NCBI RefSeq assembly: GCF_002563895.1
Contig: NZ_PDJB01000001.1
Coordinates: 231,501-295,500 of the forward strand
Reading direction: 5' to 3'
DNA length: 64,000 bases
From: Pseudomonas lurida
GTDB lineage: Bacteria; Pseudomonadota; Gammaproteobacteria; Pseudomonadales; Pseudomonadaceae
The position numbers were made by a program, and so were the translations under genes. Every line of letters starts with the position of its first letter. Positions within the stretch are counted from its first letter, which is position 1. The notes beneath the pieces are model-generated. The model ran no database searches and was not told the DNA's origin. It was given only the letters and a program-made list of their open reading frames with translations. Shown here in pieces: positions 24,362 through 48,027 of the stretch.

Positions 24362-25282
24362 ATGAGCCTGCATGAAACCTACGGCCAGCCACTGCTGACC
24401 TTCCCCGACGCGGAAAAAAGCCCGCTGAGCATCCGCGCCAAGGCGCTGGTGTTCGTTGATCCCCGTTCGCGGCAACTGCGCGAAGACCTGGAAAGCCTCG
24501 CGCCCCGCGCCCTGCCGGTGTTGATTCGCGGCGAGACCGGTAGCGGTAAAGAGCTGCTGGCCCGGCATATCCACCGTGGCAGCGATCGCACCGGCTTGTT
24601 TGTCTCGGTCAATTGCGGCGCCATCAGCCCGACCTATGCCGATGCCGAACTGTTCGGTTATGCCGCCGGCGCCCACAGTGGCGCGGCCAGCAGCCGGGCA
24701 GGGTGGTTCGGGTCGGCGAATGGCGGCACCTTGTACCTGGATGAGATCGGCGACTTGCCGCTGCCGATCCAGGTGAAACTGCTGGCCGCCCTGGAAAACC
24801 ACGAAGTCACCCGCGTGGGTGCCCATCAGCCAAGCCCGGTGGATGTGCGCCTGGTGGCGGCCACCAGCATCGACCTGGCCCAGGCCGTGGCCGCCGGGAA
24901 GTTCCATGAGCGCCTGTTCCATTACTTGAGTGAAGGCCAGCTGGACTTGCCCGCACTGCGCGAGCGTGTCGGGGACATCCTGTCCCTGGCCGAGTACTTC
25001 CTCGGTATCTACAGCCAACGCCTCGACCTGCCGGTGCCGCTGATCAGCGATGCCGCCCAGCGGGTGCTGGAACACCACAGCTGGCCGGGCAATACCCGTG
25101 AGCTGGAAAACGTTATTCACTTTGCGTTACTGGTCAGCAGCGGCGACGAGATTTTGCCCGAGCACCTGAACCTGCCCGTGGCCGGCTCGCCGTTGGAGCA
25201 AGTGCAGCGGATTTTTGAGCGCGCCAGCCCTGCCGAGCGGGAAGCCTTGCGCAGCTTTCTGCATGACCAAGCGGCGACATGA
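24362..25282 (+). CDS. Sigma-54 activator ATPase without DNA-binding domain
   Basis: 306 residues, almost entirely an AAA+ sigma-54 interaction domain: Walker A GETGSGKE (57-64), Walker B GGTLYLDEIG (121-130), sensor II region WPGNTRELENV (about 248-258). Two departures from the family: the sigma-54-contacting loop is GAHSGA (103-108) rather than GAFTGA, and the protein ends at ...REALRSFLHD, where a Fis-type helix-turn-helix normally begins. There is also no N-terminal sensor domain. Its setting next to sulfur-type transporters recalls SfnR, a sigma-54 activator of sulfone use, but that parallel is inference. The ATG at 24362 follows GCGGGAGCC. Confidence 0.82.
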   Translation: MSLHETYGQPLLTFPDAEKSPLSIRAKALVFVDPRSRQLREDLESLAPRALPVLIRGETGSGKELLARHIHRGSDRTGLFVSVNCGAISPTYADAELFGYAAGAHSGAASSRAGWFGSANGGTLYLDEIGDLPLPIQVKLLAALENHEVTRVGAHQPSPVDVRLVAATSIDLAQAVAAGKFHERLFHYLSEGQLDLPALRERVGDILSLAEYFLGIYSQRLDLPVPLISDAAQRVLEHHSWPGNTRELENVIHFALLVSSGDEILPEHLNLPVAGSPLEQVQRIFERASPAEREALRSFLHDQAAT

Positions 25283-25430
25283 ATAAAATGGAATATCAAC
25301 GTGAATAAAAGATATTGTTCGGGAATAAAAAATCTAGGTATTGTCCCTCCCACGCCGCGATAGCACTTCGCTGGCACACCTCATAAGAACGGTCGTCAGA
25401 GACGCCCCGGAATTTCGATAAGGACACTGC

Positions 25431-26213
25431 ATGAAAAAGGTTCTGTTGTTTACCGCACTGGCGGCTGCCCTGACTGCAAGCTTCGCCCAGGCCAACGAGA
25501 AACTGGTGGTTGCCGCCACCCCGATCCCGCACGCCGAGATCCTCGAACTGGTCAAGCCAACCCTCGCCAAAGAAGGCGTGGACCTGGAAATCAAAGTCTT
25601 CACCGACTACGTACAGCCCAACGTGCAAGTGGCCGAGAAACGCCTGGACGCCAACTACTTCCAGACCCTGCCGTACCTGGAAAACTTCAACAAGGGCAAG
25701 GGCACCAACCTGGTCACCGTGGTCGGTGTACACGTTGAGCCCTTCGGCGGTTACTCGAAAAAGATCAAGAACATCTCCGAGCTTAAAGATGGCGCCACCG
25801 TTGCCATTCCAAACGAAGGCTCCAACAGCGGTCGCGCCCTGTTGTTGCTGCAAAAAGCCGGTGTGATCACCCTGAAAGACCCGACCAACGCCCTCGCTAC
25901 GCCAAAAGACATCAAGGACAACCCCAAGCACCTGAAATTCAAGGAGCTGGAGTCGGCCCTGCTGCCACGCGTGCTGGACCAGGTTGACCTGGACCTGATC
26001 AACACCAACTACGCCCTGGAAGCTGGCCTCAACCCAGCGAAAGACGCACTGATCATCGAAGACGCCAAGTCGCCCTACGTGAACTTCCTGGTGGCTCGCC
26101 CGGACAACAAGGACAGCGACGCTATCCAGAAACTCTCCAAGGCCCTGACCAGCCCGGAAGTCAAAGCCTTCATCGAGAAGAAGTACAACGGCGCGGTAGT
26201 GCCTGCGTTCTGA
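25431..26213 (+). CDS. MetQ/NlpA-family substrate-binding protein (orphan)
   Basis: 260 residues, NlpA (methionine-binding) family: signal peptide to about residue 22 (SFAQAN), then LVVAATPIPHAEILE, YVQPNVQVAEKRLDANYFQ and AIPNEGSNSGRALLLLQKAG. There is no lipobox cysteine, so it is probably a soluble periplasmic protein rather than a lipoprotein. No MetN or MetI partner is beside it; the next genes form a different, amino-acid-type transporter. The nearest Met-type ATPase and permease are at 40.6-42.4 kb. Likely binds methionine or a related sulfur compound. A terminator follows. Confidence 0.88.
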   Translation: MKKVLLFTALAAALTASFAQANEKLVVAATPIPHAEILELVKPTLAKEGVDLEIKVFTDYVQPNVQVAEKRLDANYFQTLPYLENFNKGKGTNLVTVVGVHVEPFGGYSKKIKNISELKDGATVAIPNEGSNSGRALLLLQKAGVITLKDPTNALATPKDIKDNPKHLKFKELESALLPRVLDQVDLDLINTNYALEAGLNPAKDALIIEDAKSPYVNFLVARPDNKDSDAIQKLSKALTSPEVKAFIEKKYNGAVVPAF

Positions 26214-30060: not shown

Positions 30061-30476
30061 ACCTGGATGTTGGATCAGACCGGGTACATATCCGTTATTT
30101 AGGTTACGGCTGATATTGGTTCCGCTCTTACAGCGGGTCACTTTGGAAAAGAGCCCCAAAGTAACCAAAAGGCTCTTGCCCCAACACTCGGCACCTCGCC
30201 TAGGCTCGGTGTGCCCGTCATCCGACAGGGATTTGGGGGGCCGCCGCCACGCGCCCTCCATGGCGCGGGGCGGCTAAACCGGCATCCCTGCCGGTTTACC
30301 CCCCAAATCCCTGTCGAATTCCGGCCAGCGTGTTTGATGGGGCGCCTGAGATCAAAAGCACGATCAAGATCAAGATCAAGATCAAGATCAAGATCAAGAT
30401 CAAGATCAAGATCAAGATCAAGATCAAGATCAAGATCAAGATCAAGATCAAGAGCGGCTCGCTTCGCATCGTGGTT
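30006..30476. repeat. Long dispersed intergenic repeat, copy A (with 15 x GATCAA)
   Basis: About 470 bp nearly identical to 39503-39905 in the same orientation. Shared landmarks in order: a REP, GGGTACATATCCGTTATTTAGG, a GCCCCAAAGTAACC segment within inverted arms (AAGAGCCC ... GGCTCTT), CACTCGGCACCTCGC, the GGCGCGGGGCGG block, AAACCGGCATCCCTGCCGGTTT (hairpin), GTCGAATTCCGGCCAGCGTG, then a hexanucleotide GATCAA tract of 15 units (30362-30451) and GAGCGGCTCGCTTCGCATCG. Similar intergenic elements are widespread in fluorescent pseudomonads. The 29595-30510 gap holds no gene I can support. Confidence 0.9.
30362..30451. repeat. GATCAA hexanucleotide microsatellite, 15 units
   Basis: Fifteen perfect tandem units of GATCAA, 90 bp, against three units in copy B. 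Read in frame on either strand it gives only low-complexity dipeptide runs (for example Ile-Lys or Asp-Leu), so it is not coding. Confidence 0.95.
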
Positions 30477-39545: not shown

Positions 39546-39905
39546 GGCCTGACAGCCGGCCTGGATGTCGGATCAGGCCGGGTACATATCCGTTATTTAG
39601 GTAACGGCTGCTATGGGTTCCGCCCTTACGGCGGGTCACTTTTGGAAAAGAGCCCCAAAAGTAACCAAAAGGGCTCTTGCCCCAACACTCGGCACCTCGC
39701 TCACGCTCGGTGTGCCCGTAATCCGACAGTGATTTGGGGGGCCGCCGCCACGCGCCATCCATGGCGCGGGGCGGCTAAACCGGCATCCCTGCCGGTTTAC
39801 CCCCCAAATCCCTGTCGAATTCCGGCCAGCGTGTTTGATGGGGCGCCTGAGATCAAAAGCACGATCAAGATCAAGATCAAGAGCGGCTCGCTTCGCATCG
39901 TGGTT
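39503..39905. repeat. Long dispersed intergenic repeat, copy B (with 3 x GATCAA)
   Basis: About 400 bp, same orientation and landmarks as copy A at 30006-30476, with a few substitutions and small indels and only three GATCAA units (39863-39880). It ends about 60 bp from a reverse-strand gene, as copy A does. The 39393-39963 gap contains only these repeats. Confidence 0.9.
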
Positions 39906-39963: not shown

Positions 39964-40590
39964 CTACCGTTTGCGCCACACACTGGCTAACCAAGGTTGT
40001 TGCTCCCGAGGCAAGCCTGCGGGACGGTAGTAGTGCTCCAGTTCCACAAACCCTGCTTGCGTCAGCAGCGCTTGCCACGCCTCCAAGTCGTGGTAAGCCC
40101 CATACCGAGGTCCATTCCAGCCTTCTTGGTTCTCACCCCTAGGGTTGGAGCTGAACAGTACGCCTCCCGGCTTCAACGCGCCCTGTAACTGCTTGAGCAC
40201 ACGCGGCAGTTCCTGCTTGGGAATATGGAACAGCACCGCGTTGGCGAAAATCCCGTCGAAGCGTTCGGCAGGCAGGTCCAGCTTCAGGAAGTCCTGCTGC
40301 ATCACTTCGCAACCACTGTCTTCGCGCGCCATCTGTGCAAACCGCTCCGAGCCATCCAGCCCGACGGCGATATGCCCCATGCGGGTAAAGGTCTGCAAGT
40401 CGCGCCCCGGCCCGCAGCCGAAATCGAGCACGGTAAACGGCGCCGAACCTTGGATATGCCGCAGCAGCGCGTCGATGTTCTGGCTCACATCGTGGTCGCG
40501 GGTGCCTTCGCGGAAGTCCTCGGCCACGCTGTTGTAGTGGCCGAGGGTGGTGGCGGTGATGGTGTTGAGGTCGTCGGGCTTGAGGGTCAT
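39964..40590 (-). CDS. Class I SAM-dependent methyltransferase
   Basis: 208 residues. Motif I LDFGCGPGRD (56-64 region), the acidic residue after strand 2 (AVGLDGSERF) and post-motif II FDGIFANAVLFHIPKQ give a Rossmann methyltransferase of the ubiquinone/tellurite-resistance type. Its substrate is unknown. It begins 41 bp after the metI-like stop on the same strand and may be the last gene of the sulfur operon, but a separate unit is equally possible. Confidence 0.85.
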   Translation of the reverse strand: MTLKPDDLNTITATTLGHYNSVAEDFREGTRDHDVSQNIDALLRHIQGSAPFTVLDFGCGPGRDLQTFTRMGHIAVGLDGSERFAQMAREDSGCEVMQQDFLKLDLPAERFDGIFANAVLFHIPKQELPRVLKQLQGALKPGGVLFSSNPRGENQEGWNGPRYGAYHDLEAWQALLTQAGFVELEHYYRPAGLPREQQPWLASVWRKR

Positions 40591-40630: not shown

Positions 40631-41275
40631 TCACCTCTTGTTCAGCACCCGGGCCAGGCGATCACCACCGAGTTGAATCACCGCCACCAGGATCACCAGC
40701 AGCACAATCACGGTCAGCATGATCTGCGTATCAAAACGCTGGTAGCCGTAGCGGTAGGCAATATCCCCCAGCCCGCCCGCACCGATCGCGCCCGCCATGG
40801 CCGACGAGTTGATCATGGTCACCAGGGTGATGGTGAACCCGCCGACAATCCCCGGCAGCGCTTCCGGCAACAGCACGTGCCAAATGATGTGCCAGCGGCG
40901 GCAGCCCATGGCCTGCGCGGCTTCGATAAGGCCGTGGTCGACCTCGCGCAGGCTCACCTCGGCAATGCGTGCAAAAAACGGTGTGGCGGCGATGGTCAGC
41001 GGTACGACGGCAGCCCATACGCCGTAGGTGGTGCCGACGATCAGCCGGGTGAACGGGATCAACGCCACCATCAGGATCAGGAACGGAATCGAACGGAACA
41101 GGTTGACGAACGCCCCCAGTACGCGGTTCCACGCCGGCGCCTGGTAGATGCCGCCTTTGTCGCTGGTGACCAGGAACACTGCCAGCGGAATCCCCACCAG
41201 CAGCGCGATCAGCGACGACACGCCGACCATCAGCAAGGTGTCGATGGCGCCCTGCACTAAACGATCAAACCACAT
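40631..41275 (-). CDS. metI: Methionine-type ABC transporter permease
   Basis: 214 residues, MetI family with five hydrophobic helices, the EAA loop [19 protein letters not shown] (about 134-152) and the [27 protein letters not shown] segment typical of D-methionine permeases. It overlaps metN by 11 bp. In this operon the transported compound is probably an organosulfur substrate for the oxygenases upstream rather than methionine itself (inference). Confidence 0.88.
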
Positions 41276-42380
41276 GGCCCAGCACCTCCACCTGTTGTGC
41301 CCAATGGCCGGCGCGCTTGCGCAGTTCTTCGGCGCCGTGGGGTGAGCCGTTCACCGCCAGCAGCAGTTGCCCGAGGGCATGCCCCTGGATGCGCTCCACG
41401 CCGCCTTGCAGCAAGCGCACGCGCCCGCCGAGGGCGCTGAACAGCGCGGCCAGGTCCGGCTCGTCGGTGTCGCTGCCGGTGAACTGCAAGCGCAGCACAA
41501 TCGCCGCGTCCGCAGATCCAGGTGTGGGTTGCAAACGGCTTTGCAACTCTTCCGGCAACCCATGCTGCAGCGGTGCCAGCAGGGTCTTGCTGACCTCATG
41601 TTGCGGGTTGCCGAACACTTGCCATACCGGGCCTTGCTCGACGATACGGCCATGCTCCAGCACCACCACGCGGTCGCAGATCTCGCGGATCACCGCCATC
41701 TCGTGGGTGATCAATACGATGGTCAGGCCCAGGCGCTGGTTGATCTCGCGCAGCAAGCCGAGAATCGATTGGGTGGTCTCCGGATCGAGCGCCGACGTGG
41801 CCTCGTCGCACAGCAGGATCTGCGGGTCATGCACCAACGATCGGGCGATGCCCACGCGCTGTTTCTGCCCGCCGGACAGCTGCGCCGGGTAAGCCGTGTG
41901 TTTGTCCTGCAGGCCCACCAGTTCCAGCAGCTCGCGCACCTTTTGCTCACGCTCGGGCTTGGGTACGCCAGCGACTTTCAGCGGCAACTCGACGTTCTGC
42001 CACACGGTCTTGGCCGACATCAGGTTGAAGTGCTGGAAGATCATGCCGATGCGCCGACGCAGCGCCACCAGGCGGTCTTCATCGAAGTCGCCAATGTCGA
42101 CCTGATCGATCAGCACGCGTCCGCTGCTCGGTTGCTCGAGGCGGTTGATGGTGCGGATCAGCGACGACTTGCCGGCGCCGCTGCGGCCAATGATGCCGAA
42201 CACTTCACCGCGCTGGATCGCCAGGTCGATGCCTTGCAAGGCATGCACGCTGCCGTCGTAGGTCTTGCCCAGGTTGATAAAGCGTACATGGGCACGGTTC
42301 AGGTCAGGGTGCAGTTCTGTCTGCTCGGCGTCCCTGGGCGGCAAGCCCAGGTCGCGCAGTTGAGAGTGGGCGGCGGTCAT
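41265..42380 (-). CDS. metN: Methionine-type ABC transporter ATPase
   Basis: 371 residues: about 30 extra N-terminal residues, Walker A GRSGAGKS (65-72), signature LSGGQKQR, Walker [15 protein letters not shown] and switch His in LITHEM. The C-terminal about 90 residues match the NIL ligand-sensing domain of MetN, which binds methionine to inhibit transport; here it may sense a different sulfur compound. Overlaps metQ by 4 bp and metI by 11 bp. Confidence 0.9.
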
Positions 42381-43192
42381 TTTTTATCTTCCCAGCCGAC
42401 CTGGTAGAGCTTGCCGAGGGACTTGTCCAGTGCAGCACGAACGACCGGCGAGTGCCGGTAGATGTCGACAAACTTGATCACCCGCGGGTCGGTTTTGCTC
42501 TTGGGCTGGATCACGAACTGGATCACGTACTCCGGATGGTCGAGGCCGTCGAATAGCAGCGCCGACTCGGCATCGAAGGTCTTGGACAGGCGGATATACG
42601 CCGGGTAGCCCTGTACCAGGTCGGCATCGTCATAGGCGCGCACCAGTTGCACGGCCTCGACTTGCAGGATCTTGATGTTCTTGGGGTTGGTGACGATGTC
42701 TTCTTCGGTGGCCTTGTAGCCCACGCCTGGCTTGAGGGTGATCAAGCCCGCCTTGGCCAGCAACTGCAGGCCGCGACCGCTGTTGATCGGGTCGTTGGCA
42801 ATCGCCACGCTGGCGCCTTCGGGCAGGTCACTGATGCTCTTGTACTTCTTCGAATACAGGCCAACGTTGTTGATGATGCCCGGCGCATACGGCACCAGGT
42901 CAAAGCCGGCGGCGGCCTTGGCGTTTTCCAGGAACGGGATGTGCTGGAAGTAGTTCACGTCGATATCGCCAGCCGCCAGGCTGACGTTGGGCGCGATCCA
43001 GTCGGTGAACTCCACCAGCTCGACCTTCAGGCCTTGCTTGCCGGCCTCAGCAACAGCGGCTTCGAGGGGAATGGCGAAGGCGGCGGTGGTGCCGATCTTC
43101 AACGGTGCATCGGCGGCGAACACCGCCGAGCTGAACAGTCCGAAAGCCAGGGCCAGTGCTTTGACTGGGTGGGCGAGCAGGTTTTTTTTCAT
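42377..43192 (-). CDS. metQ: MetQ/NlpA-family substrate-binding protein
   Basis: 271 residues. Signal peptide to about residue 28 ([10 protein letters not shown]), no lipobox Cys, then [33 protein letters not shown] and [20 protein letters not shown] of the NlpA family. The start at 43192 ([10 protein letters not shown]) has GGAAA upstream; a start twelve codons earlier is unlikely. It pairs with the metNI genes downstream and follows the LLM monooxygenase gene by 57 bp. Confidence 0.9.
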
Positions 43193-43248
43193 GGTCAATT
43201 TCCAGTCATGGGGTGTTGGTGCAAACAATCGAGTTCCAGCGTTCTGCT

Positions 43249-44601
43249 TCAGTGGCGGTAGGTGGACCCGGTGTGTTGTTCGGGCAGGCGAGCGCGGCCG
43301 TGGAAAACTTTTTCCCGCAGTGTTCCCTGTTCATATTCAGTCTTGTACGAGCCACGCTTTTGCAGCTCCGGCACCACCAGGTCGATAAAGTCCACGTAGC
43401 TTTCCGGCGTGACGATGCGCGTGAGGTTGAAGCCGTCCAGGCCGGTTTCGCTGATCCAGGATTCAAGTTCGTCAGCGACTTGTTCGGGCGAGCCGACCAG
43501 GGTGATATAGCGTCCGCCGAGGGCGTGCTGTTCCAGCAACTTGCGCCGGGTCCAGTCGTTGTTCTGCAGGTTCTTGGTGGCTGACTGGATCGCGTTGCTC
43601 TTCACGTACTGGATCGGCTCGTCCAGTGCGTACTGGGCAAAGTCGATGGCGGTGGAGGCCGAGAAATGCGCCACGCCGGCTTCCGGGCTGGCGTAGCTCA
43701 GGTACTCGGCATGCTTGGCCCAGGCGAGTTCTTCAGTGGCGCCCACGATCACGTTGAGGCCCATGAACACTTTGATGTCATCCGGATTGCGCCCGGCCTC
43801 GACCGCGCTGGCGCGCACTTTATCTACCTGGGCCTTGGTCGCGGCCTTGTTCTGGCCGCTGATGAAGACGCACTCGGCATGGCGCCCGGCGAACAGCAGG
43901 CCGCGGTCCGAACTGCCGGCCTGGAACAGCACCGGCGTGCGTTGCGGCGAGGGTTCGCACAGGTGATACCCCTCCACCTGGTAGAACTCGCCGTGGTGCT
44001 CGACCTTGTGCACCTTGCCCGGCTGCGCATACACCCGCGCCTGCGGATCATTGAGCACTGCATCGTCTTCCCAGCTGCCTTCCCAGAGTTTGTAGAGCAC
44101 CTCCAGGTACTCATCGGCCTGGTCGTAACGGCGGTCATGCTCGACCTGCTCGGTGAGGCCCATGGCCTTGGCGGCGCTGTCGAGGTAGCCGGTGACAATG
44201 TTCCAACCCACTCGGCCGCGGCTCAGGTGGTCCAGAGTGGACATGCGCCGGGCGAACAGATACGGCGGTTCGTAGGTGAGGTTGGCGGTGAGGCCAAAGC
44301 CGAGATGGCGGGTGACCGCAGCCATGGCCGAGACCAGCAGCAAGGGGTCATTGACCGGCAGCTGGATCGACTCCTTGAGCGGCACGTCGATCGAGTCCTG
44401 GTACACATCGTAGACGCCGACGATATCGGCAATGAACAAGCCGTCGAACAGCCCGCGTTCCAGGGTTCTGGCCAGGTCGGTCCAGTACTCGAGGGTCTTG
44501 TACTGGGTGGACGTGTCCCGTGGATGGGTCCACAGGCCATGGTTGATGTGCCCGATGCAGTTCATGTTGAAGGCATTGAGCAGGATTTTTTTCTTCGCCA
44601 T
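43249..44601 (-). CDS. LLM flavin-dependent monooxygenase (NtaA/SnaA/DszA family)
   Basis: 450 residues, bacterial-luciferase-like TIM barrel of the long NtaA/SnaA/DszA subfamily: NAFNMNCIGHINHGLW at the start, AAVTRHLGFGLTANLTYE, LSRGRVGWNIVTGYLDSAAKAMG and QAGSSDRGLLFAGRHAECVF. Members oxidise nitrilotriacetate, dibenzothiophene sulfone or dimethyl sulfide using FMNH2 from a separate reductase; no reductase gene is visible here. Start and stop overlap the upstream SfnB-like gene (TGATG). The substrate is unknown; the context points to an organosulfur compound. Confidence 0.88.
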   Translation of the reverse strand: MAKKKILLNAFNMNCIGHINHGLWTHPRDTSTQYKTLEYWTDLARTLERGLFDGLFIADIVGVYDVYQDSIDVPLKESIQLPVNDPLLLVSAMAAVTRHLGFGLTANLTYEPPYLFARRMSTLDHLSRGRVGWNIVTGYLDSAAKAMGLTEQVEHDRRYDQADEYLEVLYKLWEGSWEDDAVLNDPQARVYAQPGKVHKVEHHGEFYQVEGYHLCEPSPQRTPVLFQAGSSDRGLLFAGRHAECVFISGQNKAATKAQVDKVRASAVEAGRNPDDIKVFMGLNVIVGATEELAWAKHAEYLSYASPEAGVAHFSASTAIDFAQYALDEPIQYVKSNAIQSATKNLQNNDWTRRKLLEQHALGGRYITLVGSPEQVADELESWISETGLDGFNLTRIVTPESYVDFIDLVVPELQKRGSYKTEYEQGTLREKVFHGRARLPEQHTGSTYRH

Positions 44602-45794
44602 CAGATGGTCCCCCGCAGTGGCGGGTTTTCATCGTTGAGGTAGTAATTGCCCACCGCGTGATACTTCCAGCGCACCGGGTCGTGCAGGGTGTGCACGCGG
44701 GCGTTGCGCCAGTGGCGGTCGAGACCGTGCTCGGCCAGGGTTGCCTGGCTGCCGGCGAGTTCGAACAGGGTACTGCCGGCGGCCAGCGAGATTTCGGTGC
44801 TCAAGGCGCGCACTTCGGCGACGGCGATCGAGGCGGCCGCAACGGTCTCGGCATTGCTGTCGGCCTGGGCGCGGTCGAGGAATTCGCCCGAGCGTTCCAG
44901 CAACGCCTCGGCGGCGTGCAGGCGGATGCTCAGGTGGCCGAAGCTTTTCAGGGTCAGTGGGTCTTCGCTGGCTTTGTCGCTGCTGGCGTCGATCCACGGA
45001 CGGGTCTTGGTGCGCACAAAGTGCAGCGCGTCTTCAAAGGCGGCGCGGGCAATACCGGTGTCGATGGCGGCGTGCAGAATCTGCGCCAGGGGCCCGACCG
45101 TGGTCGGGCGCTCGAAGGCGCTCTGGAACGGGATCACATCCTGGGCGGCGACCCACACGTTGTCGAACACCACCGACCCGCTGCCGGTGGTGCGCTGGCC
45201 GAAGCCGCTCCAGTCGTCGATCACGCTCAAGCCTTCGCTGTGGCGCGGGACAAAAGCAAGTTGCTGCACCCCGTGTTCATCCACCACTGAGGTGGGGATA
45301 CGCTGGGCGTAGATCGCCCCTGTGGAATAGAACTTGCGCCCGCTGATACGCAGACCGTCACCGTCGCGGGTGAGTGTGGTGACGCGATCATGGGCCGTTT
45401 TGGTGCCCAACTCTGCCAGGGCGTTGCCGAAGCGTTGACCTGCCAATACCTCGGCATACAGGCGGCGTTGCTGCGCCGGGCTGCCATTCACGCGCAGCAC
45501 TTCCAGGGCATAGAAATGATTTTGCGGGATCTGGCCCAGGGAAGCGTCCGCCTGCGCGATCAAGGCGATGACCTTGGCCAGGGTGACATTGGAAACGCCC
45601 GCACCACCGTACTCCTTGGGCACGCTGATACCCCACAGGCCGGAGCGCGAAAACGCGTCCAGTTCGGGCAAGGGCAGGCGGCGCTCGCGGTCGCGCTGTG
45701 CGCTGTCGCGGCGAAAGTCTTCGGCCAGGTCGCTGGCGACAATAAGGGCTTGTTCGTCGCTGGTGATAACCGCGACGTGAGTAGAGACAGTCAT
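44601..45794 (-). CDS. sfnB: SfnB-family sulfur acquisition flavoprotein (second paralog)
   Basis: 397 residues, acyl-CoA-dehydrogenase fold of the SfnB/DszC type (flavin monooxygenases, not dehydrogenases). Landmarks: GLWGISVPKEYGGAGVSNVTLA, IAQADASLGQIPQNHFYALE, KFYSTGAIYAQRIPTSV, DDWSGFGQRTTGSGSVVFDNV and the C-terminal HWRNARVHTLHDPVRWKYHA. GGAG lies upstream of the ATG. SfnB is linked to use of dimethyl sulfone in P. putida. It overlaps the LLM gene by 1 bp and lies 40 bp after the first SfnB paralog. Confidence 0.88.
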   Translation of the reverse strand: MTVSTHVAVITSDEQALIVASDLAEDFRRDSAQRDRERRLPLPELDAFSRSGLWGISVPKEYGGAGVSNVTLAKVIALIAQADASLGQIPQNHFYALEVLRVNGSPAQQRRLYAEVLAGQRFGNALAELGTKTAHDRVTTLTRDGDGLRISGRKFYSTGAIYAQRIPTSVVDEHGVQQLAFVPRHSEGLSVIDDWSGFGQRTTGSGSVVFDNVWVAAQDVIPFQSAFERPTTVGPLAQILHAAIDTGIARAAFEDALHFVRTKTRPWIDASSDKASEDPLTLKSFGHLSIRLHAAEALLERSGEFLDRAQADSNAETVAAASIAVAEVRALSTEISLAAGSTLFELAGSQATLAEHGLDRHWRNARVHTLHDPVRWKYHAVGNYYLNDENPPLRGTI

Positions 45795-45834
45795 GTTGTT
45801 CTCCAGAAGCTCGTGGAAAAAGTGTTCTGGTCGG

Positions 45835-47076
45835 TTAAATCCAGGAGTGACGAGCGGGCAATGTGCCGTTCAATCGATAGGCGCCGATGGCGTGATACTT
45901 CCAGCGCACGGGGTCATGCAGGGTGTGCACGCGCGCGTTGCGCCAGTGGCGGTCGAGGTTGAATTCGGCGAGGGTGGCGCGGCTGCCGGCCAGTTCGAAG
46001 AGCTTTTCGCTGACCAGCAGCGACACTTCGGTGGTCAGCACCTTGGCCTCGGCCACCGCGATGGATGCCCGCGCAGCAGACTGCGCAGTGATCGGCGCGG
46101 CGCTGACGTGGTCCAGCACCTGGCCGGCCTTGCGCAGCAGGGCTTCGGCGGCGTGCAGTTCGATCTTCAGCCTGCCGATGTCGGCGATCACGTACAGGTC
46201 ATCGCTGGCGCGTTCGACCTTGGCGTCGATCCATGGGCGCGAGCGCTCACGCACGAATGCAAGGGTGTCATCCAGTGCTCCACGGGCGATGCCGGCGTCG
46301 ATGGCCGCCTGGATCAACTGCGAGACAGCGCCCTGGACCGTCGGTGTTTCGCCGATACGCCAGTTTTCGATCACCAGTTCGGCGTCCACCGGCACCTGGT
46401 CCAGCAGCACGGTGCCGCTGGCAGTGGTGCGCTGGCCGAAGCCGGACCAGTCATCGACGATGCGCAGCCCTTGGGTGCCACGGCGTACGAACGCCATGAC
46501 CTGCTTGCCGTCATCGTTCAGCGCTTTCACCGCGACCCAGTGTGCAAACAACGCGCCGGTGGAATAGAACTTCTGGCCGCTGATCACATAGCCGTCACCT
46601 TCGGCGGTGATGCGTGCCTTGAGCTCCAGGGTGTTTTTGGTGCCGCGTTCCGGGCCGCCATTGCCGATGCGCCAGCCGTCGAGGACGCTCTGGAACAGCT
46701 GCTTTTTCTGGCGCTCGGTGGCGGCGCCCTGCAACAGCTGCAGGATACCGAAATGATTCTGCGGGATCTGCCCGAGGGCCGGGTCTGCCGCGCTGATGAT
46801 CGCGAATACCTCGGCCAGGGTCACGAAGGACACCTGCGGGCCGCCGTACTCACGGGGAATGGAAATACTGCCCAGCCCACTGCGGGTGAACTGCTCGATC
46901 TGTGCCCACGGCAGCTTGCGCTGCTGGTCGCGCCTGGCGGCTTGCAGGCGCGCAGCCTGGGCCAGCTCATGGGCAGCCTTCAGCGCCTCTGCATCGTTGC
47001 GCAGCACGGCGGCCGGCAACAGCAGGGGGGCTACATCCAGATCACTCTGGGGGGGTGTTAGAGCCAAGTTAGACAT
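45835..47076 (-). CDS. sfnB: SfnB-family sulfur acquisition flavoprotein (first paralog)
   Basis: 413 residues, same architecture as the next gene: GLGSISIPREYGGPQVSFVTLA, ISAADPALGQIPQNHFGILQ, KFYSTGALFAHWVAVKA, DDWSGFGQRTTASGTVLLDQV and HWRNARVHTLHDPVRWKYHA at the end. The two proteins are clearly diverged tandem duplicates with nearly identical C-terminal coding DNA. AAGGAG eight bases before the start lies inside a 20-codon leader ORF whose stop overlaps the ATG (TGATG), so translation may be coupled. Probably the first enzyme gene of a sulfur-source operon running down to metI. Confidence 0.88.
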   Translation of the reverse strand: MSNLALTPPQSDLDVAPLLLPAAVLRNDAEALKAAHELAQAARLQAARRDQQRKLPWAQIEQFTRSGLGSISIPREYGGPQVSFVTLAEVFAIISAADPALGQIPQNHFGILQLLQGAATERQKKQLFQSVLDGWRIGNGGPERGTKNTLELKARITAEGDGYVISGQKFYSTGALFAHWVAVKALNDDGKQVMAFVRRGTQGLRIVDDWSGFGQRTTASGTVLLDQVPVDAELVIENWRIGETPTVQGAVSQLIQAAIDAGIARGALDDTLAFVRERSRPWIDAKVERASDDLYVIADIGRLKIELHAAEALLRKAGQVLDHVSAAPITAQSAARASIAVAEAKVLTTEVSLLVSEKLFELAGSRATLAEFNLDRHWRNARVHTLHDPVRWKYHAIGAYRLNGTLPARHSWI

Positions 47077-47138
47077 CAGCGCCGCTCCTTGGCTGCACGT
47101 AATGCCCTGGCGTTACGCACCGGGGTAATCCTGACCAT
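47076..47138 (-). CDS. 20-codon leader ORF overlapping the sfnB start
   Basis: ATG GTC AGG ... CGC TGA, encoding MVRITPVRNARALRAAKERR. GAGG lies five bases before its ATG and its TGA shares a base with the sfnB ATG. The peptide has seven Arg or Lys residues plus further Ala, no Cys or Met beyond the start, so it is not a simple cysteine/methionine attenuator. The spacing, strong ribosome site and stop-start overlap argue for real translation. Function unknown. Confidence 0.5.
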   Translation of the reverse strand: MVRITPVRNARALRAAKERR

Positions 47139-47242
47139 ACCGACCTCGCATTCAATGAAATAAAAACAGAAAAATCAGCGATGTCCGGTGGTCCGGTGCA
47201 TATACCCTAAGCTTGTTAAATATTTAAATAAACTAACTTTTG

Positions 47243-47251
47243 GGAATATGC
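47243..47251 (-). promoter_or_regulatory. GCATATTCC motif upstream of the sfnB operon
   Basis: The 9-mer GCATATTCC on the transcribed strand, at the edge of an AT-rich block about 105 bp before the leader ORF. The same 9-mer lies upstream of the cystine transporter (50761-50769) and a shorter GGAATAT before the orphan MetQ-like gene. Candidate CysB or other sulfur-regulator contact; speculative. Confidence 0.3.
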
Positions 47252-47301
47252 ATAGAAGGTCTGTCACCCAGGTCGCCGGGTGAGCCCGGTGCGCGCGGCT
47301 G

Positions 47302-48027
47302 CTAGATCCGCGCGGCCCCGGCCGCTCGGGCTGGTGCCTCGGCGGCAATGCGCAAGGTACGGGCTGGCGCCCAGCGTGAATTGTTGCCGACACGATCCAG
47401 AATGCAGTACGTCACCTCCAGCCGGCAGTCGTCGCCGGCCTCGGTGATGAGCGCCGACGGCACCCACACCTGCACTGCAAGGCCCACGTCCCGGGCCTGG
47501 AGCTTCGGCAGGTCCAGGCGCGCATCGCCCCAGCGCACGGTGATGGCGTCGCCGCAGGTCATATTCAGGTACGGTTCGATGGTCAGGGGGATACCGCGCC
47601 GCACCTGGCTGGCGTTGACGCCGTAGCGGCGGATGGTGTCGGGCAAGCCTACGGGGGCAAGGTTCTGGTTCTCATCGCGGTACAGGGACGAGGGCTGGCC
47701 GCCTGGAGGGTGGGTCTTCACGCGCAGGTGCGCCATGGCCGAGCGTGTAGGCGCACGCCCGATTTGCATGACCCGGTAGTGCACCCGGGCCGGGCCCTCC
47801 AGCACGAAACTCTCCGGGATGCGCAGGCGTGTAACCGTGCCGATCTTGCAGGCGGTGACGCGGCGCGAGGCGGCGAAGCAGTTGTTCCAGAACAGCTCGA
47901 CCAGGTCGCCTTCATCCATGCCGGGATACGGCGCAATGTCGACCTGCAGGTGTGTGGCGGCGAGGGCATTGATGCCATTGCCGATGGCCTGGGGCAGTGT
48001 CGGTGCGGTGAGCAGGGGGTGCGTCAT
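47302..48027 (-). CDS. Hypothetical protein with beta-sandwich repeats
   Basis: 241 residues, no signal peptide or membrane helix. Two successive domains with alternating hydrophobic strands: about 20-130 and 130-235. The second contains GDAITVRWGDARLDLP and CRLEVTYCILDRVGNNSRW, a pattern seen in Ig-like repeat modules of larger Pseudomonas surface and toxin-like proteins. Each domain has the 'GD-x-V/I-x-L/V-x-W' strand. GGAG precedes the ATG. It sits alone between two sulfur operons and its function is unknown. Confidence 0.6.
   Translation of the reverse strand: MTHPLLTAPTLPQAIGNGINALAATHLQVDIAPYPGMDEGDLVELFWNNCFAASRRVTACKIGTVTRLRIPESFVLEGPARVHYRVMQIGRAPTRSAMAHLRVKTHPPGGQPSSLYRDENQNLAPVGLPDTIRRYGVNASQVRRGIPLTIEPYLNMTCGDAITVRWGDARLDLPKLQARDVGLAVQVWVPSALITEAGDDCRLEVTYCILDRVGNNSRWAPARTLRIAAEAPARAAGAARI

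Follow-up and report, generated by a model that had tools for sequence, protein, structure and literature searches.

Dimethyl sulfide (DMS) and dimethyl sulfoxide (DMSO) are oxidized in Acinetobacter baylyi by the flavin monooxygenases Dms1 (ACIAD0427), Dms2 (ACIAD0428) and Dms3 (ACIAD2537). These group D enzymes, of which Dms1 belongs to the SfnB family, are driven by MsuE and induced in the absence of sulfate, and growth on DMSO is nearly abolished in a dms1-dms2-dms3 mutant (PMC13352529). Here we describe an operon of related enzymes in Pseudomonas lurida, located in a stretch of 64,000 nucleotides (the window, positions 231501–295500 of a single-contig genome of 6.31 Mb). It encodes two SfnB-family flavin monooxygenases (SfnB1 and SfnB2), a luciferase-like monooxygenase (LLM), and the binding protein (MetQ), ATPase (MetN) and permease (MetI) of an ATP-binding cassette (ABC) importer. 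In contrast to the Dms pathway, its genes belong to other loci and clades, and no relative of MetQNI was found in the Dms stretches (L156 and L157; numbers of this form denote the loci and regions compared).

The dszABC (4S) pathway likewise joins a DszC-fold S-oxygenase to an LLM enzyme that cleaves C–S bonds, but the SfnBs of the operon fall far under the DszC cut-off, its LLM is nearer to the DMS monooxygenase 6ak1 and to LadA, an ABC importer is present, and no desulfinase is found among the six genes. The importer follows the pattern of the methionine importer MetNIQ (an NlpA-fold binding protein, a MetI permease and a MetN ATPase with a NIL domain), from which the operon MetQ departs in having both Asn residues that hold the ligand backbone replaced and in missing the TIGR00363 cut-off. 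Sulfur scavenging by monooxygenases using reduced flavin mononucleotide (FMNH2) is also the function of msuEDC and ssuEADCB, and relatives of msuD, sfnR, msuC and msuE stand in line in L176; those systems, however, take sulfonates and use another family of binding protein. In Bacillus subtilis, the ytm operon combines, as ours does, an LLM monooxygenase (YtnJ) with an amino-acid-type importer, in that case of the cystine type, but it has no SfnB pair and its importer belongs to another family; the YtnJ structure (1tvl) is among the solved-structure matches of the operon LLM. Among systems that scavenge sulfur with flavin monooxygenases, the operon is one widespread variant. We favor, with a probability of about 0.53, the reading that it is a sulfur-starvation operon for the uptake of one class of small organosulfur acid and the oxidative removal of its sulfur. 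No publication on its substrate was found in the open-licence literature, which omits most subscription papers.

Gene order and limits of the operon

The genes of the operon and the features next to it are as follows, in positions of the window:

47183–47258, minus strand: conserved AT-rich promoter or leader block upstream of SfnB1, defined by column conservation in 17 Pseudomonas sequences
47076–47138, minus strand: upstream open reading frame (ORF) of 20 codons, with a GAGGT site before it and a stop overlapping the SfnB1 start (TGATG)
45835–47076, minus strand: SfnB1, SfnB-family flavin monooxygenase with an acyl-CoA dehydrogenase fold, 413 amino acids (TIGR04022, 604.6 bits)
44601–45794, minus strand: SfnB2, second SfnB-family flavin monooxygenase, 397 amino acids (TIGR04022, 621.0 bits)
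43249–44601, minus strand: LLM, FMN-dependent monooxygenase of the NtaA/DmoA family, 450 amino acids (TIGR03860, 562.6 bits)
42377–43228 (TTG start) or, likelier, from an ATG at 43192, minus strand: MetQ-like NlpA-fold binding protein with an altered ligand site (PF03180, 235 bits)
41265–42380, minus strand: MetN-like ABC ATPase with a NIL domain (TIGR02314, 355 bits; PF09383, 45.6 bits)
40631–41275, minus strand: MetI-like ABC permease (NF008049, 231.1 bits, cut-off 212)
39964–40590, minus strand: class I methyltransferase (Methyltransf_25/11), adjacent and not part of the core

Both SfnBs score above the SfnB family cut-off (430.9) and the LLM above that of NtaA/DmoA (279.7). Spacing is tight throughout, with gaps of 56 bp or less and three overlaps: 40 bp separate SfnB1 from SfnB2, SfnB2 and LLM overlap by 1 bp, 56 bp separate LLM from MetQ if the ATG at 43192 is taken as its start, and the overlaps of MetQ with MetN and of MetN with MetI are of 4 and 11 bp. 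An earlier prediction made from the sequence of the window (the original prediction) had described these six ORFs as a single-strand operon, and this stands. Position 47138, at which its range had ended, is not the start of SfnB1 but the ATG of the 20-codon upstream ORF, the SfnB1 ATG being at 47076.

To assess conservation, named genomes were scanned with one Moraxellaceae SfnB2 as the query, and out of at least 586 relatives the 80 best were retrieved. These comprise 57 loci from Acinetobacter and other Moraxellaceae (the query's own contig is among them) and 23 from Pseudomonas, a sample biased towards close relatives of the query. Among all loci compared here, L044 and L054 are one and the same contig, as are L053 and L130. 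The order SfnB1-SfnB2-LLM-MetQ-MetN-MetI on one strand was found in 80/80 loci and, as these had been retrieved through SfnB2 similarity alone, such an arrangement is not due to chance. A second MetQ is present in 29 of the 80, and P. otitidis (L114) is among the carriers. The methyltransferase, 40 bp past MetI on the same strand in the window, had been put forward as a possible seventh member; it is absent from all 57 Acinetobacter/Moraxellaceae loci, present in 12 of the 23 Pseudomonas loci and within 200 nt of MetI in four of these, and was ruled out as a core gene.

Gene order was also compared in 18 further regions taken from wider samples. Outside the taxonomic order the six genes recur in L176–L179, with rearrangements and one to four MetQ copies; L176–L178 are rearranged and have three or four MetQs, and the standard order is seen in L179 and in L191. 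Apart from two distant relatives considered below (L175 and L180), the remaining 11 regions contain SfnBs that stand alone, pairs of the SfnB3 type or relatives at scattered positions. In a single scan of viral contigs no relative was found.

The ligand site of the binding protein

In Neisseria meningitidis MetQ, R156, N213 and N238 hold the amino-acid backbone of methionine, and Y81, F98, H100 and Y103 hold its thioether (PMC6739813). Replacement of a single one of these Asn residues weakens L-methionine binding more than 10,000-fold, from 0.2 nM to 78 µM in the N238A variant of that protein (PMC6739813) and to 300 µM, versus 6.6 nM, in E. coli MetQ N229A (PMC12357092).

We aligned 110 operon MetQs (80 first copies, 29 second copies and the window MetQ) through the E. 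coli numbering. Position 229 has changed from Asn to Ile in 110/110, and the INTxY motif has become [YF]PxY, also in 110/110 (GYPAY in the window). Two extra residues in E. coli offset the alignment at N202, and neither motif Asn is retained in either placement; of the backbone ligands R144, N202 and N229, the Arg is kept and both Asn residues are replaced in every one of the 110 sequences. The thioether pocket is partly changed: that of the first copies has Trp at 69 (79/80, one gapped) and Phe at 91 (80/80), and keeps F86 (79/80) and H88 (80/80), while all 29 second copies have Gln at 88. Among the 11 MetQs of L176–L179, ten have Ile at position 229 and one has Met.

This pattern bears directly on the possibility that the operon obtains sulfur from methionine, D-methionine or methionine sulfoxide or sulfone through a paralogue of MetQNI. 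The overall architecture would agree with it, as MetQ has the NlpA fold, MetI is above its cut-off, MetN has a NIL domain, and the score of MetN is near that of the MetN encoded at L041 (372.9 bits), part of another metQ-metI-metN set in the same genome. The MetN cut-off of TIGR02314 (499.7) was dropped as evidence against methionine, since the L041 MetN likewise misses it. However, the Asn residues that hold the backbone are lost throughout the operon MetQs, and the genome already has the L041 set, whose MetQ, like that of E. coli, keeps all seven methionine contacts. The L041 MetQ also passes the TIGR00363 cut-off of 228.85 with 235 bits, and the operon MetQ stays below it with 143. We consider a methionine-type substrate quite improbable. 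Judging from its sequence, the operon MetQ has probably lost its hold on the methionine backbone, and the methionine label on this importer is probably wrong; a plainly Met-type ligand is not supported.

The loss of both backbone Asn residues, together with the retention of the Arg and of most of the thioether pocket, points in the simplest reading to a ligand that combines a small thioether end with an acid group and lacks the alpha-amino group. As a tentative candidate, the ligand may be a thioether (methylthio) carboxylate of this sort, such as 3-methylthiopropionate or the keto or hydroxy acids of methionine.

Other MetQs near such loci have sites of their own. A second MetQ in the window (25431) keeps six of the seven contacts, with Thr at 88, and has no Cys or internal Met; a short sigma-54-type activator is encoded beside it in the same stretch of the plus strand (24362–26213), with 52% identity over 262 residues to an activator located beside an MsuC relative at L039. 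In L045, L046, L053, L117–L119, L125 and L130, a tandem second module, SfnB-LLM-MetI-MetQ, stands upstream of the operon, and its MetQ, with Glu at the position of Asn229, perhaps has another ligand.

The SfnB pair and its relation to known enzymes

Identity to A. baylyi Dms1 is 53% for SfnB1 and 51% for SfnB2; to Dms2, Dms3 and MsuC it is 29–33%. In a tree of 100 sequences, SfnB1 falls in a clade of 32 members (support 1.0) and SfnB2 in one of 28 (0.995), or of 32 when four sequences of L176–L178 and L180 are included (0.913). As the two clades are separate and each contains Pseudomonas, Acinetobacter and more distant genomes, SfnB1 and SfnB2 appear to derive from an old duplication that has been kept as a pair. 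Dms1 clusters with a third enzyme of this genome, SfnB3 (55% identity), and not with SfnB1 or SfnB2; this clade of eight, with a support of only 0.775, groups with the SfnB1 clade at 0.904. Eight positions are at least 90% fixed within each of the three clades yet differ between them, and two of these lie two and three places after a conserved Asn (GNGGPE, GNALAE, GNAFSE). Elsewhere in the genome, a Dms2 relative (L040, 57%) adjoins sfnG, and SfnB3 adjoins another LLM enzyme; in three genomes, a separate ORF of 112–145 amino acids resembling the C-terminal part of SfnB lies between SfnB3 and its LLM partner:

L034, 10578–10916, minus strand: SfnB C-terminal-like ORF
L051, 1674–2111, minus strand: SfnB C-terminal-like ORF
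L192, 1798, minus strand: SfnB C-terminal-like ORF

The closeness to Dms1 raises the alternative that the operon serves DMS and DMSO assimilation, with SfnB1 and SfnB2 oxidizing DMS to dimethyl sulfone as Dms1 does, and with the importer attending to some incidental compound. Besides the level of identity, this would be consistent with the joint clade of SfnB1 and Dms1, which have many invariant residues in common, and with L044/L054 (one Moraxellaceae genome), where msuE and sfnG, both above their cut-offs, lie directly upstream of the operon on the same strand. The clade-specific residues after the conserved Asn speak against it, as does the fact that DMS requires no ABC importer. The positions of the genes in A. 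baylyi are of further help here. Its type strain has two adjacent pairs of such genes, on C2 and C7, which were placed relative to rpoB and gyrA, presumably ACIAD0307 and ACIAD2652. The C2 pair lies 119 kb from rpoB, in agreement with a distance of 120 locus numbers, and is therefore most likely dms1-dms2. On C7, a group D gene about 111 kb from gyrA agrees in position with ACIAD2537 (115 numbers). The operon pair is found on the other side of gyrA at a distance of 447 kb, in agreement with ACIAD2064/2065 (472 numbers). Our initial guess that the operon pair was dms1/dms2 was overturned by these positions, and it is probable, from map position and the assumed anchors, that the A. baylyi copies of the operon pair are ACIAD2064/2065. 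Dms2 and Dms3, as identified by position, score 275 and 272 bits against the SfnB model, under its cut-off.

ACIAD2064 and ACIAD2065 are reported to have formed inclusion bodies and were not assayed (PMC13352529, June 2026). If the mapping holds, the operon copies are presumably intact in the triple dms mutant, and its near lack of growth with DMSO indicates that DMS and DMSO are probably not the main substrates of the operon SfnBs. Provided also that these copies are expressed in the mutant, the operon SfnBs probably do not replace the Dms enzymes and act on something else. DMS assimilation through the operon seems quite unlikely on these grounds.

A larger or differently charged substrate was also considered, namely a bulkier thioether, thiophene or aryl sulfide acid treated in a DszC/DszA-like manner, or an anionic sulfinate or sulfonate held by the arginine. 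Among solved structures, the SfnBs come closest to DszC by bit score (194 and 183), but against the DszC model itself (NF043015) they reach 227.2 and 206.5 bits, far under the cut-off of 850. Gordonia alkanivorans 135 has no dsz, and an sfnB gene of this strain is up 312-fold on dibenzothiophene compared with sulfate (PMC11852219), although this comparison also withdraws sulfate and may report starvation only. In L047 and L191 the operon has taurine-type genes nearby. On the other hand, the small-pocket residues F86 and H88 are kept in nearly all first copies of MetQ, although the second copies have Gln at 88. This alternative is unlikely, and a small thioether acid remains our preferred type of substrate. 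As for the LLM, its nearest solved chains are 6ak1 (516 bits) and LadA (3b9n, 515 bits), with DszA at 275. Of the DszC plus DszA pairing drawn in the original prediction, we retain S-oxidation followed by C–S cleavage as a proposal and discard a close likeness to DszA.

The composition of the SfnBs is in keeping with expression under sulfur limitation: SfnB2 has no Cys and no internal Met and SfnB1 has one Met, a total of one Cys or Met in 808 residues after the start. Cys plus Met amount to 22 of 2122 residues in the six operon proteins, versus 360 of 16367 in the other 50 predicted proteins of the window (Fisher p = 0.0002); LLM, MetN and MetI are not notably low in them.

Flavin supply, expression and the proposed pathway

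The operon had been expected to borrow a flavin reductase, and a candidate is indeed encoded elsewhere in the genome. At L039, msuE (TIGR03566, 253.9 bits, cut-off 212.5) is accompanied by genes for an alkanesulfonate monooxygenase, a relative of MsuC and a sigma-54 activator. Comparison with models confirmed MsuE, this monooxygenase and SfnG, and the MsuC and SfnR names at L039 rest on identity and neighborhood. In addition to L044/L054, msuE relatives lie near operon genes, and on their strand, in two genera of a single more distant family (L176 and L177), and in L176 relatives of msuC, msuD and sfnR are also in line with them; in L103, L105 and L108 msuE is nearby on the opposite strand. 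From these neighborhoods, it is plausible that MsuE acts as the reductase and that the products are handed over to Msu/Ssu enzymes.

Published expression data for SfnB pairs fit sulfur starvation. PFL_0244/0245, two SfnB genes, drop along with oscA and cysP among the sulfur genes that fall up to 300-fold in a P. protegens gacS mutant (PMC12892942); ABUW_2335/2336 rise with sfnG, msuE and ssu genes in A. baumannii given vitamin B12 (PMC12892962), and sfnB-family genes are up in a cysteine-biosynthesis mutant of A. baumannii (PMC13344012). Judging from the presence of two adjacent SfnB genes, PFL_0244/0245 and ABUW_2335/2336 are probably orthologues of the operon pair. The general proposal of the original prediction, sulfur scavenging by import and successive flavin monooxygenations, is supported; that prediction had left the substrate unnamed.

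Upstream of SfnB1, the block at 47183–47258 is invariant in 47 of 76 columns (18 sequences were chosen for this alignment and one was dropped for want of an ATG), versus 1 of 82 in the upstream flank, and its core is unique in the genome when up to three mismatches are allowed. The upstream ORF ending in TGATG over the SfnB1 start is seen in 14 of 31 Pseudomonas sequences, and as a variant in 4, and was not found in the 57 Acinetobacter/Moraxellaceae loci. Just four distinct 22-codon versions of it exist, one of them divergent at many codons, and purifying (coding) selection on it is weakly supported by this comparison.

Promoters dependent on sigma-54 carry a -24/-12 consensus, which was scanned for together with an SfnR-type palindrome. 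None of the 30 upstream regions contained the sigma-54 pattern in its strict form. In a looser scan, the window operon had no -24/-12 site within four mismatches and its best SfnR-type palindrome was four mismatches off, and a sigma-54/SfnR promoter was rejected for it; within this genome, the same scan gave sites two mismatches off for msuE, SfnB3 and the Dms2-like gene. In P. otitidis, a -24/-12-like site with two mismatches to the consensus lies at -80 from the SfnB1 of the operon, so that control of the operon may differ between Pseudomonas groups. A CTGTTGCC..GGCAACAG palindrome is exact upstream of msuE and of the Dms2-like/sfnG pair (L039, L040) and has two mismatches at SfnB3 (L034), compared with four at the best operon site.

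Several neighbors lie upstream on the strand of the operon: a conserved gene with no family match, a cystine-type ABC importer and a D-cysteine desulfhydrase. The gene with no family match is an ORF of 241 amino acids just upstream of the operon (47302–48027, minus strand), with relatives at 49–81% identity in 13 of the 23 named Pseudomonas loci. Two matches to the TwoAYGGAY RNA (Rfam RF01731) lie at 39707–39833, just beyond the methyltransferase, and at 30204–30335, both on the minus strand as the operon, and a match to the gabT RNA (RF01738) lies at 1581–1642 on the plus strand.

The pathway that we propose runs as follows. MetQ-MetNI would import a small thioether acid lacking the alpha-amino group. 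SfnB1 and SfnB2, by comparison with Dms1, would oxidize its sulfur from sulfide to sulfoxide and sulfone with reduced flavin from MsuE. In the 4S and DmoA reactions an LLM enzyme carries out C–S cleavage, and by the same chemistry the operon LLM may yield a sulfinate together with an aldehyde. As gene neighborhoods suggest, the conversion to sulfonate and sulfite may then be completed by MsuC and MsuD/SsuD from other loci. The class of chemistry assigned to the operon enzymes is likely. Successive oxidations, as originally predicted, are retained; for the release of sulfite, Msu/Ssu enzymes encoded elsewhere are likelier candidates than the operon itself.

A number of observations weigh against the reading of the operon as one that imports a small organosulfur acid and desulfurizes it under sulfur starvation. 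The MetNI part of the methionine importer contributes to selectivity itself (PMC12357092). Ranked within the window, the Cys/Met poverty of the six genes is borderline (p = 0.054), partly because TcyJ, TauA and the second MetQ of the window are equally poor in these residues. An msuE adjoins the operon on the same strand in only 1 of the 80 named loci (L054), and a promoter motif common to the operon and to sequences upstream of tau, ssu, msu and sfn genes was sought and rejected, none being found. Finally, L175 has the three enzymes and no importer, and L180 has a rearranged set with a canonical-type MetQ (INADY, Cys at 229) among the enzymes.

It is possible, if doubtful, that the operon represents an undescribed desulfurization of deaminated methionine-type thioether acids, with a new MetQ subfamily and a paired SfnB/LLM route to methanesulfinate that would be widespread in Pseudomonas and Acinetobacter. 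An SfnB above the cut-off is present in 240 of the 298 genomes sampled in the genus (10 of 293 in the order and 30 of 398 in the phylum), yet Dms1 is the sole member with a measured reaction that we found in the literature. The altered site of the operon MetQ advises caution against calling every NlpA-family protein beside MetNI a methionine binder. As the operon combines two SfnBs with a dedicated importer, knowing what this single binding protein carries could show what both SfnB clades do and point to a sulfur source that soil and plant-surface bacteria commonly use.

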